Assembly: GCF_026913015.1 (NCBI RefSeq)
Contig: NZ_JAPTYD010000001.1
Location: 1-64,000 of the forward strand
DNA length: 64,000 nucleotides
From: Paracoccus benzoatiresistens
GTDB lineage: Bacteria > Pseudomonadota > Alphaproteobacteria > Rhodobacterales > Rhodobacteraceae
Direction: 5' to 3'
Under the pieces are notes generated by a model that worked only from the letters and a program-made list of their open reading frames with translations, did not search any database and was not told the origin of the DNA. Positions within the stretch are counted from its first letter, which is position 1, and each line of letters begins with the position of its first letter. The position numbers were made by a program, and so were the translations under genes. This document shows, one piece after another, positions 7,984-35,467 of the stretch.

Positions 7984-8820
7984 ATGAGTGACGCGAAGCC
8001 GATAACCGCCGAAGACCGCGCCTATCCCTTTCCCCACAGTGAAGAGGATGCGGTCCGTGCCCGGCACATTCCGGATACTCCGCAGACGCGCTCACCCGCC
8101 TATCAGCTGGCCTTCACCGACCGCGACTTCCTGCTGCGCGAGGAGTTGCGCCCCGTCCGCCTGCAACTGGAACTGCTGAAGCCGCAGATGCTGCTGGACG
8201 AGGCCGGGGTGGAATCGACCGTCGTGATGTTCGGCGGCGCGCGCATCCCTTCGCCCGAAAACGCAGGCCGCGCACGGACGCCCACGCTGGCGAAGCTGTC
8301 GGCCTATTACGAGGAAGCGCGGCTTTTCGCGCAGGAGATGACCCGCCGCAGCCTGGAAACGGGCGGACGCGAGTTTGTCATCACCACCGGCGGCGGCCCC
8401 GGCGTGATGGAGGCGGGCAATCTGGGCGCCCATCAGGCGGGCGGCAAGTCCATCGGCCTGGGCATCGTGCTGCCGCACGAACAGGCGCCGAACGTCTATG
8501 TGACGCCGGAGCTGTGCTTTAACTTCCACTACTTCGCGATCCGCAAGATGCATTTCCTGATGCGCGCGCGGGCGATCACCATCTTTCCCGGCGGCTTCGG
8601 CACCCTGGACGAGACCTTCGAGGCTCTGACCCTGATCCAGACCGGCCGCATGGCCCGCGTCCCCTTCCTGATGTTCGGCGCCGAGTTCTGGGACGGCATC
8701 ATCAACTGGAAGGCCCTGGCCGAGGCGGGGACGATCTCCGAGGAGGATTTGGGGCTGATCCACTATGTCGAAACGGCGCAGGAGGCGGTGGAGGTCATCG
8801 ATGCCTCGCCGAAGCCGTAG
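7984..8820 (+). CDS. LOG family protein (TIGR00730-type, lysine-decarboxylase-like fold)
   Basis: A 278-residue cytoplasmic protein with the Rossmann-type LOG core: ITTGGGPGVMEAGN near residue 132, and PGGFGTLDETFE near residue 202, the phosphate-binding PGGxGTxxE signature. Members of this family hydrolyse nucleoside 5'-monophosphates of cytokinin type. The long family members in Rhodobacteraceae carry an N-terminal extension like the roughly 75 residues seen here, and their substrate is not known. It is divergently transcribed from dapD, and its 3' end converges on the GT2 gene. Confidence 0.85.
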   Translation: MSDAKPITAEDRAYPFPHSEEDAVRARHIPDTPQTRSPAYQLAFTDRDFLLREELRPVRLQLELLKPQMLLDEAGVESTVVMFGGARIPSPENAGRARTPTLAKLSAYYEEARLFAQEMTRRSLETGGREFVITTGGGPGVMEAGNLGAHQAGGKSIGLGIVLPHEQAPNVYVTPELCFNFHYFAIRKMHFLMRARAITIFPGGFGTLDETFEALTLIQTGRMARVPFLMFGAEFWDGIINWKALAEAGTISEEDLGLIHYVETAQEAVEVIDASPKP

Positions 8821-8857
8821 CTGCGGTCCGGCGGGTGATCGGCGGGGACGCGGCCTC

Positions 8858-9625
8858 TCATGTTACGCTGGTCGCATTTGACCTGATCCGGAGCAATTTC
8901 CTGATGCGCCTCTTCCAGATGCGCGGCCCGACCAATTTGTGACGCAGATAGATCTGCTGATAGATTTCCGCCCGCGCCAATTCGCCCGTGTCGTTGCGTG
9001 TTGCGGAGCTTGAGATATGGTAGTTCGGGCCTGAAATGTCCGCATGGCGGAAGCGGGCCTGTTTTCGCAATTGCAGGATGAGGTCCCAATCCTCATGCGA
9101 CTTCAGGGATGGGTCGAACGAAACGCTCTTCAGGTGCCTTCGCGGAATTATTAGGGCGCTAACAGGAATGAAGTTCTGCACGGCAAGGTTGCTCACCTGC
9201 AATCCGGCAAGGCTGATCGACCTGCTGCCCGTCCTTTCTGCGCTGCCGCCAGGCAGAATATCTTCCCTGATCTCGGTGAAGTTCGTGTAGACGACCTCGT
9301 CCGGCGCCGTCAGCATGGGTTTCAGTCGGGCGAAGAAATCGCCTTCCATGCTGTCGTCGTCGTCGAGGAAGCAGACCCATTGTCCCCGCGCGGCCATCAT
9401 TCCCATGTTCCGTGTCTCGGCCAGACCCCTTAACTGCGGCAGCCGCAGGAAGCTGTCCGAGGGCCGCAGCAACTCCGTGGCGACCTGAGCTGTCGGCAGG
9501 GAGGACTCGTCCGAACACAAGATGATCTCAGCCAGATCGCCTTGCTGCAGAACAGATTCGATCGCGCGGCGCAACAGGACGGGGCGTTGGTGTGTCGTGA
9601 TGATCACGGAAATCAAAGGCTGCAT
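8858..9625 (-). CDS. Glycosyltransferase family 2 protein
   Basis: A 255-residue GT-A fold transferase. It opens with LISVIITTHQRPVLLRRAIE, has an RGLAETRNMGM segment, and the metal-binding aspartates of the DXD-type motif in WVCFLDDDDSMEGDFF near residues 92-99. The later HEDWDLILQL block is the usual acceptor-side acidic motif (ED). It is soluble, with no membrane helix, and the acceptor is unknown. A surface polysaccharide role is inferred from the family only. It stands alone between the LOG gene and rlmN, and its codon usage is visibly less GC-rich than both neighbours, which suggests separate acquisition. Confidence 0.85.
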   Translation of the reverse strand: MQPLISVIITTHQRPVLLRRAIESVLQQGDLAEIILCSDESSLPTAQVATELLRPSDSFLRLPQLRGLAETRNMGMMAARGQWVCFLDDDDSMEGDFFARLKPMLTAPDEVVYTNFTEIREDILPGGSAERTGSRSISLAGLQVSNLAVQNFIPVSALIIPRRHLKSVSFDPSLKSHEDWDLILQLRKQARFRHADISGPNYHISSSATRNDTGELARAEIYQQIYLRHKLVGPRIWKRRIRKLLRIRSNATSVT

Positions 9626-32418: not shown

Positions 32419-33579
32419 TCAGCCCCCTGCGGAGGCGGCCAGTCGGTCGCCCTCGTCCACGTCCGGCGCCGGATCGTCCCCGACGCCTTCGTCCAGCATC
32501 TCACCGGCCTCGGCCATGTCGGCCGCATCGGACGGATCGACTCCAAAGCGCGCCGCCACGTCGGGGGCATAGCGGAACAGATCCCCGCGCAGCTTCAGCA
32601 GCGACAGGTCCTTGGTCTTGGCCTCCAGCATCACGTCGAAATCCAGGCCCTCGGCCTCGCGCATGAAGGTTGCGAACTCGAAGGGATTGGTGAAATCCGC
32701 ATGCCCCGTCCAGATGGGCGGCAGCAGCACCGTCTTGAAGCGCGACGTGGACTTCACCACCTCCCGGGTCAGCGGACCCTTGGCCGGAGCCGCCGATTTC
32801 AGGGCCGCGCGTTCCTTGTCGGTCACCTTGCGCTTGACCTCCCGCAACTCGGTCCGGGGCGAGGAAAAGTGGATCTTCGGCCGCACGCCGTCCGGCCAGG
32901 ACCGGACAAAGCGTTCCAGCGTCGGGCGCAGCGCCAGCCCCTCGGGGTTCAGGCACCAGAAATGCTGGTAGTCGAAGATCAGCGGCACCCCGCAGCGGTC
33001 ATGGATCCACAGCACGTCGGCGGCGGAAAAGCGGATGTCGTCGTTTTCCAGCACCAGCCGGCGGCGGACATGGTCGGGGCACTGGTTGTAGCCCTCGATC
33101 CAGCGGGCGCGGCTTTCCTCCCGGTCGTCGTAGACGCCGCCCACATGGGTGACCAGCACCGCCTCGGGGCCCATGCCCATGCGGTCCAGCATCTCGGCCT
33201 GCGAGGACAGATCCCAGATGCTTTTCCGGGTCAGCGCCGGGTCGGGGCTGTTCAGCAGCACGAATTGCGAGGGGTGGAAGGACAGCCGCATGTCCAGTCC
33301 GCGCGCCTTGCGCCCGAGCGCCGCGAGTTCGGCATCGCTTTCGCCCACCATGCCGTGGAACTGCGGCATGTCGGGATGGGTCGCATAGGGCGCAAGATCC
33401 GAGGACATGCGGTACATGTCGATGCCTGCCTCGACCAGGTAGTCCAGGATCGCGTCCACATATTCCAGCGAGGTCTTCAGATGCGGGTTCTGCTGCCAGC
33501 GCCGGGTGTCGTTGCTTTTCATGCCGGGCCGTCCCATCACCTTGACGGGAAAGCCCAAGCGGAGCGGTCTATCAGTCAT
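32419..33579 (-). CDS. uvsE: UV DNA damage endonuclease
   Basis: A 386-residue UVDE-family TIM-barrel enzyme that nicks DNA 5' to cyclobutane dimers, 6-4 photoproducts and some other lesions. Conserved metal-ligand blocks are visible: MYRMSSDLAPYATHP, LSFHPSQFVLLNSP, VTHVGGVYDDRE, LVLENDD and FDYQHFWCL, and a later HADF. The start at 33579 (MTDRPLRLGFPVK) overlaps the stop of the upstream DHH gene by 8 bases, so the pair is translationally coupled. The C-terminal 40 residues are acidic and not conserved-looking. Confidence 0.92.
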   Translation of the reverse strand: MTDRPLRLGFPVKVMGRPGMKSNDTRRWQQNPHLKTSLEYVDAILDYLVEAGIDMYRMSSDLAPYATHPDMPQFHGMVGESDAELAALGRKARGLDMRLSFHPSQFVLLNSPDPALTRKSIWDLSSQAEMLDRMGMGPEAVLVTHVGGVYDDREESRARWIEGYNQCPDHVRRRLVLENDDIRFSAADVLWIHDRCGVPLIFDYQHFWCLNPEGLALRPTLERFVRSWPDGVRPKIHFSSPRTELREVKRKVTDKERAALKSAAPAKGPLTREVVKSTSRFKTVLLPPIWTGHADFTNPFEFATFMREAEGLDFDVMLEAKTKDLSLLKLRGDLFRYAPDVAARFGVDPSDAADMAEAGEMLDEGVGDDPAPDVDEGDRLAASAGG

Positions 33580-34651
33580 GCACAGTCTCCTCGGGGAATC
33601 CGATCCGGGCGGCAAAGTCGTTCCAGTCGGCCGGACGTAGCGCGCCGCCCGTGGCCTGGGCGTGGCCGCTGCCGTATTCCGTGCCCGCGCCGGGGGGGCG
33701 GTGATCGGCCAGGAAGCGGATCAGATCCGTGCCGGTCGCGCTGCGCGCGGCAAAGTGGATCCAGCCGGGGCGATAGCCGGTATTGACGGCCAGCACGATC
33801 TTGTCCCTCAGCCTGCCGCGCCAGGCCTGCGCCACCAGCGGGTGGACTTGGCAGGGCGATGAAAAGCGGATCAGCGCGATGTTCCCGCGGATTCTCGGCG
33901 GGCTGCGCCGGGCAGCGTCCAGTTCCGCCGCGACCTCGGCCTTGGCGGCGTGCAGAAGCGCGGTCTCGGGGTGCCCGCCCCTGAGCAGGTCCTTGGGCGA
34001 GGCGCATTTCAGCAGCAGCGCCAGCGCCGGGCTTGCATCGGCCCCGGCCGTCCGGCGCGGCGCATTGACCAGCGACACGGCATCCCGCAGCGCCGTCTTG
34101 CCGTATCGGGCCTGCGCCTCGGCCAGTTCCGGGAAGCCTTCGACGGCCATGTCGCCGATAAGCCCAAGCGCCGCGAGCCAGAGGTCGTCCTCCGCCGCCC
34201 CGCCGCACCACCAGGCCAGCAGCGAGGAGGTCGGCTCGGGCAGCCAGCCATTGCCGGAAATCACGGCCGCATCGCCCGGCGTGCCGGTCGGCACATGGTG
34301 ATCGACCAGCACCGTGGGCAGGCCGGGCAGGATGTCGCCCTGCCGCACGCCAAGATCGGTGACGACCAGCCCGCCGGGCCGCTGCGCTTCCAGGTCCTGC
34401 CGCAGGGCGGGTGTCCAGGGGTTCTCGCCCTTGCCCATGATGCGGATATCGGCGGCCCGGCCCGCGCGGTCCAGGGCGCGCGCCAGGATCGCCACGGCCG
34501 ACAGCCCGTCGGCGTCGAAGTGACCCAGGATCAGCGGGCGCCGGTTCGGGTCGAAGCGGTCAAGCGCCGCCCGGAAGGCGGGGGCCACTTCGGCAGGGTA
34601 CCGGGGCGCGGGATCCTGGCGGGCAGGGTTCTGGGGGAGGGGTGCGGGCAT
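33572..34651 (-). CDS. RecJ-like DHH/DHHA1 phosphoesterase
   Basis: A 359-residue protein with the DHH domain motifs LILGHFDADGLSAVAI near residue 42, VVTDLG near residue 97, and VLVDHHVPTG near residue 115, and a C-terminal DHHA1 motif YGSGHAQATGG. The family includes RecJ 5'-3' single-strand exonuclease and small nano-RNases. This one is shorter than RecJ and lacks its extra OB domain. The stop overlaps the start of uvsE by 8 bases. A role in processing the nick made by UvsE is an attractive inference. The start at 34651 (MPAPLPQNP) is 3 codons inside the longest frame and is uncertain. Confidence 0.88.
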   Translation of the reverse strand: MPAPLPQNPARQDPAPRYPAEVAPAFRAALDRFDPNRRPLILGHFDADGLSAVAILARALDRAGRAADIRIMGKGENPWTPALRQDLEAQRPGGLVVTDLGVRQGDILPGLPTVLVDHHVPTGTPGDAAVISGNGWLPEPTSSLLAWWCGGAAEDDLWLAALGLIGDMAVEGFPELAEAQARYGKTALRDAVSLVNAPRRTAGADASPALALLLKCASPKDLLRGGHPETALLHAAKAEVAAELDAARRSPPRIRGNIALIRFSSPCQVHPLVAQAWRGRLRDKIVLAVNTGYRPGWIHFAARSATGTDLIRFLADHRPPGAGTEYGSGHAQATGGALRPADWNDFAARIGFPEETVHD

Positions 34652-34759
34652 GGTCCCCAACGTCGCAGGGGCCTCCCGGTTTCACGAAACACGGGAACAG
34701 ACTGGGTCCCGTCCGGCGTTCCATGGCATGACCCGGCAAGTGACAGCGGAGGGTTCGAC

Positions 34760-35467
34760 ATGAAACTGACCGACGAGGGACGCGACCGTGTTGCCCAGGT
34801 CGCGCGGCGGCACGGCTTCAGCCTTGATGCGGCCGAGGCCCTGCTGGCCGCCTTGGCGCAGGGCGGGGGCCGGCAGGCGCAGTTCGATCACCCCGAACTG
34901 GGCGGCATGGGCCAGTGGTCCGGTGGAATGCTGATGATCGGAGAGATGTTCGACAACAACCTGAAGGCACGTGTCGCGGGCCTGATCCAAGACCTGGCGG
35001 ACATGGCGGGATCGGTGTCGCAGGCTTCACAGGCACGGGGCGGCGAATCCCCATGGCCGTCCGAACTTGGCGCGCCATCGTCCAGCGGGGCGCAGAACGA
35101 CATGCGCTATGCGGTCTTTCCCGCCTCGAGGCGGCTGGCCGTGATGCGCGGCGGGCAGATGTTCCTTTATGACACGGGCGAACACCAGATCAGCGGCGTG
35201 TCCCAGCAGCAGGGGGCCGGCCATGCGCTGTCCTTCACAAGCCAGCATGGCCCGGTGTCGCTGGACAGCCTTGCCCCGGCAGGCCTTCCGGGGGCCGCCC
35301 CCGCGCCGGATGCGCAGCCCGGCCCAGCCGATGCCGCGCCCCGGCCGGTGAAGGCCGATGAGTCGATCCCGGCCATGATCGAACAACTCCACGCGCTGCT
35401 GTCGCGCGGCATCCTGACCCAGGCCGAATTTGATGCAAAGAAGGCGGAACTGCTGGCCCGGCTGTAG
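34760..35467 (+). CDS. SHOCT-domain protein
   Basis: 235 residues, no signal peptide. The C-terminal 30 residues (IEQLHALLSRGILTQAEFDAKKAELLARL region) are a standard SHOCT helical pair, a short oligomerisation domain. The N-terminal part is helical (LTDEGRDRVAQVARRHG). A middle domain of about 60 residues has MRYAVFPASRRLAVMRGGQ and a following GEHQISGVSQQQG, then a Pro/Ala linker. The function is unknown. A GGAGGG site precedes the ATG. It is divergent from the DHH gene. Confidence 0.8.
   Translation: MKLTDEGRDRVAQVARRHGFSLDAAEALLAALAQGGGRQAQFDHPELGGMGQWSGGMLMIGEMFDNNLKARVAGLIQDLADMAGSVSQASQARGGESPWPSELGAPSSSGAQNDMRYAVFPASRRLAVMRGGQMFLYDTGEHQISGVSQQQGAGHALSFTSQHGPVSLDSLAPAGLPGAAPAPDAQPGPADAAPRPVKADESIPAMIEQLHALLSRGILTQAEFDAKKAELLARL

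Follow-up and report, generated by a model that had tools for sequence, protein, structure and literature searches.

Which nuclease removes the damaged strand of DNA after the ultraviolet (UV) damage endonuclease UvsE (UVDE) has nicked it? UvsE makes only the first cut of UvrABC-independent excision repair, leaving a 3'-OH and a 5'-phosphate on the damaged strand, and to our knowledge the bacterial nuclease that takes over from it is still unsettled. A candidate is found in Paracoccus benzoatiresistens (Alphaproteobacteria; Rhodobacterales), in positions 1 to 64,000 of contig NZ_JAPTYD010000001.1 (assembly GCF_026913015.1); this whole stretch of 64,000 nucleotides is referred to here as the window. 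In it, uvsE overlaps the gene for a DHH-family protein, and an initial annotation made from the sequence had proposed that the two form a two-protein excision repair module. A DHH protein that travels with UvsE over several alphaproteobacterial orders is a ready-made candidate for damaged-strand removal, and the pair is interpreted here, with moderate confidence, as a dedicated, horizontally spread UV excision-repair module. Both proteins come from known families; what is new is the coupling of UvsE to a protein that by its predicted fold is a stand-alone RecJ core. No description of a UvsE-DHH pair was found in the open-licence papers searched.

The gene pair in the window

The two genes and the features of uvsE discussed below are as follows.

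32419..33579, minus strand: uvsE, UV damage endonuclease (P0002), 386 amino acids, ATG start; from the open reading frame, Pfam, TIGR00629 and model match
33572..34651, minus strand: DHH/DHHA1 protein, predicted stand-alone RecJ core (P0001), 359 amino acids, ATG start; from the open reading frame, alignments and structure
33572..33579, minus strand: 8-base stop/start overlap of the DHH gene and uvsE, ATGACTGA; from the ends of the open reading frames
32710..32847, minus strand: uvsE residues of about 245-290, a longer stretch between the catalytic KIH segment and TGHADF; from an alignment of 13 UvsE

The ATG of uvsE starts at 33579 and the TGA of the DHH gene ends at 33572, giving eight common bases; the reading frames (34651-33572 and 33579-32419) agree with the overlap first described. 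The pair is flanked by a divergent SHOCT-domain gene (34763 onward) and by a convergent HlyD gene with a major facilitator superfamily (MFS) gene. Because the flanking genes are divergent on one side and convergent on the other, the pair has the appearance of a two-gene operon. The host genome also encodes its own full-length RecJ, UvrA and a PolA-type 5' nuclease. Redundancy is therefore expected, and the module would be an addition rather than a replacement; the idea that the mini-RecJ substitutes for RecJ is ruled out since the host carries a full RecJ.

P0002 is certainly UvsE, as the initial annotation had it. It exceeds the cut-offs of both Pfam UvdE (173.3 bits, cut-off 24) and TIGR00629 (157.8 bits, cut-off 124.45), and its predicted model (mean predicted local distance difference test, pLDDT, 78.7) matches the UVDE structures of Sulfolobus acidocaldarius (3tc3, Z 31.9) and Thermus thermophilus (2j6v, Z 29.6). 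Ten positions (H68, H102, H145, E178, D203, H206, K235, H237, H293 and E319) are invariant among 48 aligned sequences, and we take them to correspond to the metal-binding His, Glu and Asp residues and the catalytic Lys of T. thermophilus UVDE. The stretch near residues 245-290 exceeds in length its counterpart in the UvsE of Thermus, Priestia and Haladaptatus (13 UvsE aligned). UVDE is reported to cut 5' of cyclobutane pyrimidine dimers and 6-4 photoproducts (excerpt of PMC8307549).

Recurrence of the pair

A pattern-based scan of a species genome collection with the window DHH protein, which reaches close relatives only, yielded 58 loci, all from Alphaproteobacteria or from records titled only Proteobacteria (L050 and L052 come from one metagenome-assembled genome). 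The uvsE gene lies directly downstream on the same strand in 49 of the 58, across several alphaproteobacterial orders. Stop and start codons overlap in 47 of the 49 linked loci, by 4 bases in 39, by 8 in six and by 1 in two, and an 11-base gap is present in the other two; these counts use script-chosen starts, and the 39 are made up of 38 loci plus L044, where uvsE has an in-frame stop. Recurrence on this scale excludes chance as an explanation of the arrangement. Co-occurrence with uvsE in other genomes, on which the initial annotation had staked its proposal, is strongly borne out.

Further linked cases are found in genomes G231 and G632 and on the plasmids of Paracoccus sp. AK26, Roseomonas haemaphysalidis and Pelagibacterium sp. 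H642, which are all three of the alphaproteobacterial plasmids with the DHH gene. In G060 the two genes are adjacent but divergent, head-to-head. The plasmid records label the DHH gene "DHH family phosphoesterase", "phosphoesterase" or "hypothetical protein", and such labels hide the candidate role of its product. On the R. haemaphysalidis plasmid (L106:8090-10454) convergent genes with the annotations segregation/condensation protein A and tyrosine recombinase come after the pair.

The nine unlinked loci belong to seven Aureimonas, a Chthonobacter and a Lichenibacterium, and a UvdE match is present elsewhere in all nine genomes. In a UvdE search of 11 genomes every genome gave a match, 10 of them over the Pfam cut-off, and all 12 genomes checked on account of a non-adjacent or broken-looking uvsE still have a UvsE match. 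In five unlinked Aureimonas, uvsE is cut by contig ends, leaving pieces that are 44-72% identical to the window UvsE. Across several Aureimonas (L084, L085, L088-L094, L097) the relocated uvsE is cut or a contig end lies close after it, and in G297 its pieces are spread over three contigs; a repeat or hard-to-assemble region at the relocated uvsE of Aureimonas is suggested.

Co-occurrence against background and evolutionary history

Pfam UvdE matches occur in 6 of 292 genomes of the order, one of them (G114) partial at 26.8 bits. Members of the DHH family occur in four of the 292 (254-804 bits), and all four are among the six with UvdE. At E <= 0.001 a match was present in 17 genomes altogether; the 13 besides these four score below 23 bits, 12 of them in open frames of 580-665 amino acids, as expected for RecJ. 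The chance that all four would fall among the six is about 5e-8, calculated by hand and ignoring kinship (two of the four represent one genus). At the level of the class, UvdE is found in 6 of 385 genomes (five over the cut-off) and the DHH family in two (483 and 578 bits), both with UvdE; the other 145 matches reach at most 46.3 bits. UvsE is otherwise rare among the genomes sampled. Spread of the DHH family beyond Alphaproteobacteria was considered and set aside: among 398 Pseudomonadota genomes searched at E 1e-20, only G000, G632 and G825, all of the same class, carry it; among plasmids, two Deinococcus records do.

In a tree of 66 rows, the UvsE that partner the DHH gene group into a clade of their own, separate from eight other UvsE (Shimodaira-Hasegawa-like approximate likelihood ratio test, SH-aLRT, 98), and the unlinked cases fall inside this clade. 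The tree was made by a quick method, has very long branches among the other UvsE and was used only for the separateness of the clade. It leaves out L044 and L045 (interrupted), L002/L003 (duplicates, L003 lying within L030), L084 (where the choice of start gave a fragment) and the contig-end pieces L088-L094 and L097. When the search starts from UvsE rather than from the DHH protein, the DHH gene is adjacent in eight of the nine distinct genomes or plasmids with UvsE of the clade (G000, G188, G060, G231, G247 [Falsirhodobacter algicola], G632, Paracoccus AK26, Roseomonas and Pelagibacterium). None of the 42 remaining plasmid records, which carry UvsE of other types, is among the five plasmid records with the DHH gene, and genomes G582 and G646, also with other-type UvsE, have no DHH family match.

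Distances within the DHH family and within its UvsE partners are correlated (0.82 over 54 pairs; none of 1000 permutations as high). The DHH gene is patchy, being present in 2 of the 21 same-genus genomes listed. This patchiness, together with carriage on plasmids, suggests that the two genes have spread horizontally as one unit.

Family and fold of the DHH protein

From sequence alone, the DHH label is weak. The protein scores 20.1 bits against Pfam DHH, under the cut-off of 28.1, and has no match to the Pfam DHHA1 model. Its best NCBIfam model is RecJ_archaeal (NF053576; 38 bits, cut-off 360), which is matched by all 59 sequences of the family alignment (the window protein and 58 relatives) at E <= 0.01 (best E 7.1e-20); the bacterial RecJ equivalog TIGR00644 gives 24.5 bits, far under its cut-off of 396.9. 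The 59-sequence profile matched archaeal and bacterial RecJ over the DHH domain in the PDB (best 5x4h, E 9e-15), and HHalign placed residues 25-350 on a set of 39 alphaproteobacterial RecJs (probability 98.4, E 7e-15).

The AlphaFold2 model of the DHH protein (pLDDT 95.0; predicted template modelling score, pTM, 0.91) was compared with known structures by VIA-align rescoring of the 1000 top Foldseek chains. Bacterial RecJ ranks first (8y30, Z 30.6, 322 residues, 3.0 Å), and the DNA-bound RecJ of Deinococcus radiodurans (DrRecJ, 5f55) reaches Z 30.1 (315 residues, 2.9 Å). Most rows of bacterial RecJ lie at Z 25.1-30.6 and archaeal RecJs at 19.0-27.6, while eukaryotic Cdc45 chains reach up to 24.8 and NrnA and other phosphodiesterase (PDE) enzymes 16-18. 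The model aligns to bacterial RecJ chains only as far as their residues 416-436; the protein ends at residue 359, and the oligonucleotide/oligosaccharide-binding (OB) fold that follows the core is absent. Since the chain ends where the OB fold of RecJ would begin, the protein is, by its predicted fold, a stand-alone RecJ catalytic core rather than an NrnA-like enzyme. An NrnA or cyclic-dinucleotide enzyme, named at the outset as a finding that would undo the proposal, is disfavored as a first reading and made less likely by the structure ranking of the model (Z 16-18 versus about 30).

Active site and 5'-phosphate pocket

The motifs of the DHH protein are located as follows.

34505..34522, minus strand: motif I, residues 44-49 HFDADG; H44, D46 and D48 in 59/59
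34415..34435, minus strand: residues 73-79 (GKGENPW), a loop that aligns with the 5'-phosphate and stacking loop around Arg109/Tyr114 of DrRecJ; from the hhalign register
34295..34303, minus strand: DHH motif, residues 117-119; invariant in the alignments
33644..33676, minus strand: DHHA1 motif, residues 326-336 YGSGHAQATGG; Y326 and H330 in 59/59

The DHH and DHHA1 motif residues that were initially noted as intact are thus present and invariant, even without a match to the Pfam DHHA1 model. The catalytic and pocket residues of DrRecJ, as defined in an excerpt of PMC4846377, were mapped through the host RecJ, and the register around Arg109 and Tyr114 was checked on DrRecJ. Five metal ligands (Asp81, Asp83, Asp135, His159 and Asp223) correspond to D46, D48, D99, H118 and D167, each found in 59 of 59 sequences, as is H330 at the place of motif VII His397. 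In the 5'-phosphate pocket (Arg109, Arg280, Ser371 and Arg373) charge is kept at three of four positions: Arg109 is K74 (43 K, 16 R), and Arg280 and Arg373 are R200 and R303, both 59/59. The stacking residues Tyr114 and Tyr80 are W79 (44 W, 15 Y) and F45 (30 F, 28 N, 1 S). To judge from these alignments, the protein has an intact-looking catalytic site and appears to have largely kept the pocket on which the 5'->3' polarity of DrRecJ depends. In PDB alignments the K/R...W/Y loop is gapped in Pyrococcus furiosus RecJ and reads H...V in Methanocaldococcus jannaschii RecJ2 (MjRecJ2). P. furiosus RecJ is nevertheless described as 5'->3' (excerpt of PMC5615345), and the loop is therefore suggestive but not proof of polarity.

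A proposed repair pathway

Interpretation of the pair as a UV excision-repair module rests on the gene overlap, its recurrence, the intact active-site residues and the RecJ-core fold of the predicted model. Nuclease activity and its polarity, a requirement for a flap, translational coupling and physical contact with UvsE are inferences. In the proposed pathway UvsE would cut immediately 5' of the photoproduct, and PolA or a helicase would lift a short 5' flap of the damaged strand. The mini-RecJ (OB-less, with DHH and DHHA1 domains, a putative two-metal site and most of a 5'-phosphate pocket) would then degrade the 5'-phosphorylated damaged strand 5'->3', and polymerase fill-in and ligase would finish the repair. 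Overlap of the codons may serve to keep the two proteins balanced. As the OB fold is missing, the nuclease may rely on a partner, possibly UvsE, to recruit it or to help hold its substrate. If the proposal is true, a natural stand-alone RecJ core is at work, and the pair bears on the UV tolerance of desert, air and plant-surface bacteria (habitats judged from species names and source fields).

A comparable nuclease step is described for DrRecJ: when long-patch base excision repair was reconstituted, the enzyme digested the 5' flap that had been displaced (excerpt of PMC7515722). The same source supplies the first of several points that weigh against the proposal: as described there, DrRecJ needs a free 5' tail of at least 3-4 nucleotides, made by PolA, rather than a plain nick, and is blocked on pre-incised duplex without PolA. 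Because known RecJ needs a 5' tail, a polymerase or helicase is probably needed between the UvsE nick and the DHH exonuclease, and the pathway probably involves more than two proteins. The initial annotation is accordingly supported in part, by the recurrence of the pair and the RecJ-type core of the model.

The protein itself supplies further points of this kind. The sixth metal ligand of DrRecJ, Asp79, is H44 in 59/59, Ser371 of the pocket is A301 (57 A, 1 T, 1 S) and Arg393 is Y326 in 59/59. A PAP phosphatase (8a8k) matches the model at Z 26.7 over 297 residues, and Foldseek's own ranking is topped by an archaeal RecJ-Cdc45 protein (7bih), with T. thermophilus RecJ 1ir6 fourth. As regards the genomic evidence, the 58 loci were collected through the DHH protein, and the frequency of lone uvsE of the same clade is not readable from them. 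The correlation of 0.82 was computed without species-tree control, so shared ancestry explains part of it. No conserved regulatory site was found in the upstream regions of the pair.

Exceptions to the pairing also count against it. F. algicola has a uvsE of the clade without any member of the DHH family, and the partner is therefore dispensable at least in this species; its lone uvsE lies on a plasmid (L108:4977-6038), near plasmid partition and replication genes. The linked uvsE of Microvirga aerophila is broken by one in-frame TAG (L044:7029-8015) and that of Microvirga sp. BSC39 is fragmented (L045:7029-7355), the DHH gene being intact in both, and G825 keeps a DHH gene without UvsE of the clade. 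Each of these three carries a classic-type UvsE elsewhere in its genome. The copies in M. aerophila and G825 share 53-77% identity with the classic type of Alphaproteobacteria and 29-30% with the window UvsE; the BSC39 copy shares 31% with the latter. The DHH protein may be able to serve other UvsE enzymes, or decay may be under way. The unlinked DHH gene of G825 (L155:2682-3700) adjoins a LigD 3'-phosphoesterase-type fragment (Pfam LigD_N), followed by what, judged by eye, is likely an IS3-type transposase. Finally, the DHH relatives on two Deinococcus plasmids (D. aetherius and D. taeanensis; 39-42% identical) have no uvsE nearby.

Alternative explanations

It is possible, though distinctly less than probable, that the DHH protein is a RecJ specialised for photoproducts, which docks on UvsE at the nick and directly removes the cross-linked dinucleotide, or a short oligonucleotide with the damage, without a strand-displacing polymerase. 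The substitutions in the pocket (Trp/Tyr at Tyr114, Ala at Ser371, Tyr at Arg393 and Phe/Asn at Tyr80) would then make room for a pyrimidine dimer. A partial precedent is the attack of DrRecJ on the second phosphodiester bond of 5'-deoxyribose phosphate ends (excerpt of PMC7515722). If this were true, the two proteins would constitute a true two-enzyme excision pathway independent of UvrABC.

More doubtful is a nano-DNase that clears short damaged oligonucleotides freed by UvsE and the PolA 5' nuclease and does not itself excise the lesion strand. Short substrates are plausible for a protein without the RecJ OB fold and of a length like that of NrnA-type chains, and the PolA-type 5' nuclease of the host could cut flaps. 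However, structure and profile are nearer to RecJ than to NrnA, and the host RecJ could also clear oligonucleotides.

A further alternative is that the two genes are parts of a co-transferred stress island, both aiding survival of sunlight or drying through separate pathways (excision for UvsE; recombination or RNA turnover for the DHH protein). The patchy distribution, the presence on plasmids, the DHH gene kept in three genomes whose clade uvsE is broken or lost and the other photoproduct-repair-type gene nearby in some genera are consistent with such an island. This explanation is unlikely, however, given the overlapping codons of 47 of the 49 linked loci and the UvsE match retained in all 12 genomes where uvsE is non-adjacent or looks broken.

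A very improbable alternative concerns polarity. MjRecJ2 is described as a 3'->5' exonuclease (excerpt of PMC5615345), and a DHH protein of this kind would open a gap by trimming back the 3' end at the nick left by UvsE. Archaeal RecJs are the top matches in both PDB and NCBIfam at the level of sequence, and motif I opens with H as it does in the archaeal RecJs aligned. Against this, the bacterial Arg109/Tyr114-type loop is kept as K/R...W/Y in 59/59 sequences, in contrast to its state in the two archaeal proteins, and trimming of the 3' end would leave the lesion in place. Least credible is a nucleotide phosphodiesterase or phosphatase (acting on pAp, cyclic dinucleotides or nanoRNA) without a role in DNA repair, for which the PAP phosphatase match of the same two-domain size speaks, and against which stand the higher Z to DNA-bound RecJ, the conserved pocket and loop and the recurring overlap with a DNA repair gene.

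Neighboring genes and regulation

No third gene accompanies the pair throughout the 62 loci compared. With readings that overlap the two genes excluded, the widest cluster of neighboring open reading frames covers nine of the 62 loci, all Aureimonas. Two clusters span three genera, one a spore photoproduct lyase (Pfam SPL)-type gene, itself of a photoproduct-repair kind (seven loci), and the other the ATPase of an ATP-binding cassette (ABC) transporter (four loci). SPL-type genes beside uvsE were located as follows.

L028:384-1499; L064:4794-5885; L065:4792-5880
L044:2685-3800 and 8214-9320; L099:194-1255

The SPL-type gene precedes the DHH gene on the same strand by 49 bases in Rubellimicrobium roseum (L028), by 74 in Aureimonas leprariae (L064) and by 88 in A. 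psammosilenae (L065), and in four Microvirga loci it is 2.2-2.7 kb upstream on the other strand; three members of the cluster that were scanned score 239-297 bits in Pfam. Another gene, downstream of uvsE, is common to all six Microvirga loci, and the copy that was scanned is likewise of SPL type (132 bits). G646 has a classic-type uvsE whose last 4 bases are shared with an SPL-like gene. Since SPL-type genes adjoin uvsE, the setting fits UV-photoproduct repair, without telling what the DHH protein does.

SOS control was considered and dropped, as three LexA-type patterns are absent from 61 upstream regions. A loose match to an EcfG-type pattern lies upstream in the window, L019, L031 and L068 (4 of 66 regions; 0.33 on average in shuffles), and an EcfG-type stress promoter is not claimed since the opposite strand has seven matches. 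In the window (within 34652-34762) and in L019, the sequence GGAAC...TGTT precedes the DHH start by 71 bases. A role in anti-phage defense was likewise set aside: neither protein gave a hit to a PADLOC model at E 0.01. No relatives were found in 50,697 phage records at E 0.01, and none were confirmed in a scan of viral contigs.

Comparison with known systems

The window UvsE shares the fold and the catalytic His, Glu, Asp and Lys positions of the UVDE of T. thermophilus (2j6v) and S. acidocaldarius (3tc3). Unlike these, it belongs to a separate clade, is longer near residues 245-290 and is joined to a DHH gene.

For the DHH protein, the NrnA/DHH-DHHA1 phosphodiesterases are alike in two-domain plan and length but reach only Z 16-18; D. 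radiodurans also has a DHH-DHHA1 phosphodiesterase, called RecJ-like (excerpt of PMC11229311). The archaeal RecJ, GAN and RecJ2 proteins provide the best sequence-level matches and the top Foldseek rows, and share the H that opens motif I. They differ in their lower VIA-align scores and longer chains (428-471 residues), and the loop at 73-79 of the DHH protein is of the bacterial kind.

Bacterial RecJ (TIGR00644; structures from D. radiodurans, T. thermophilus and Staphylococcus aureus) has the same DHH and DHHA1 core fold and five of the same six metal ligands as are seen in the predicted DHH protein, and the arginines of motifs V and VI and a GGH-type motif are present in both. In contrast to bacterial RecJ, the DHH protein has 359 amino acids, lacks the OB fold and C-terminal domain and has H for Asp79, A for Ser371 and Y for Arg393. 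The T. thermophilus RecJ core (1ir6) is a comparable two-domain core (Z 28.2 over 317 residues); we take it to be a truncated construct, whereas the DHH protein would be a natural stand-alone core.

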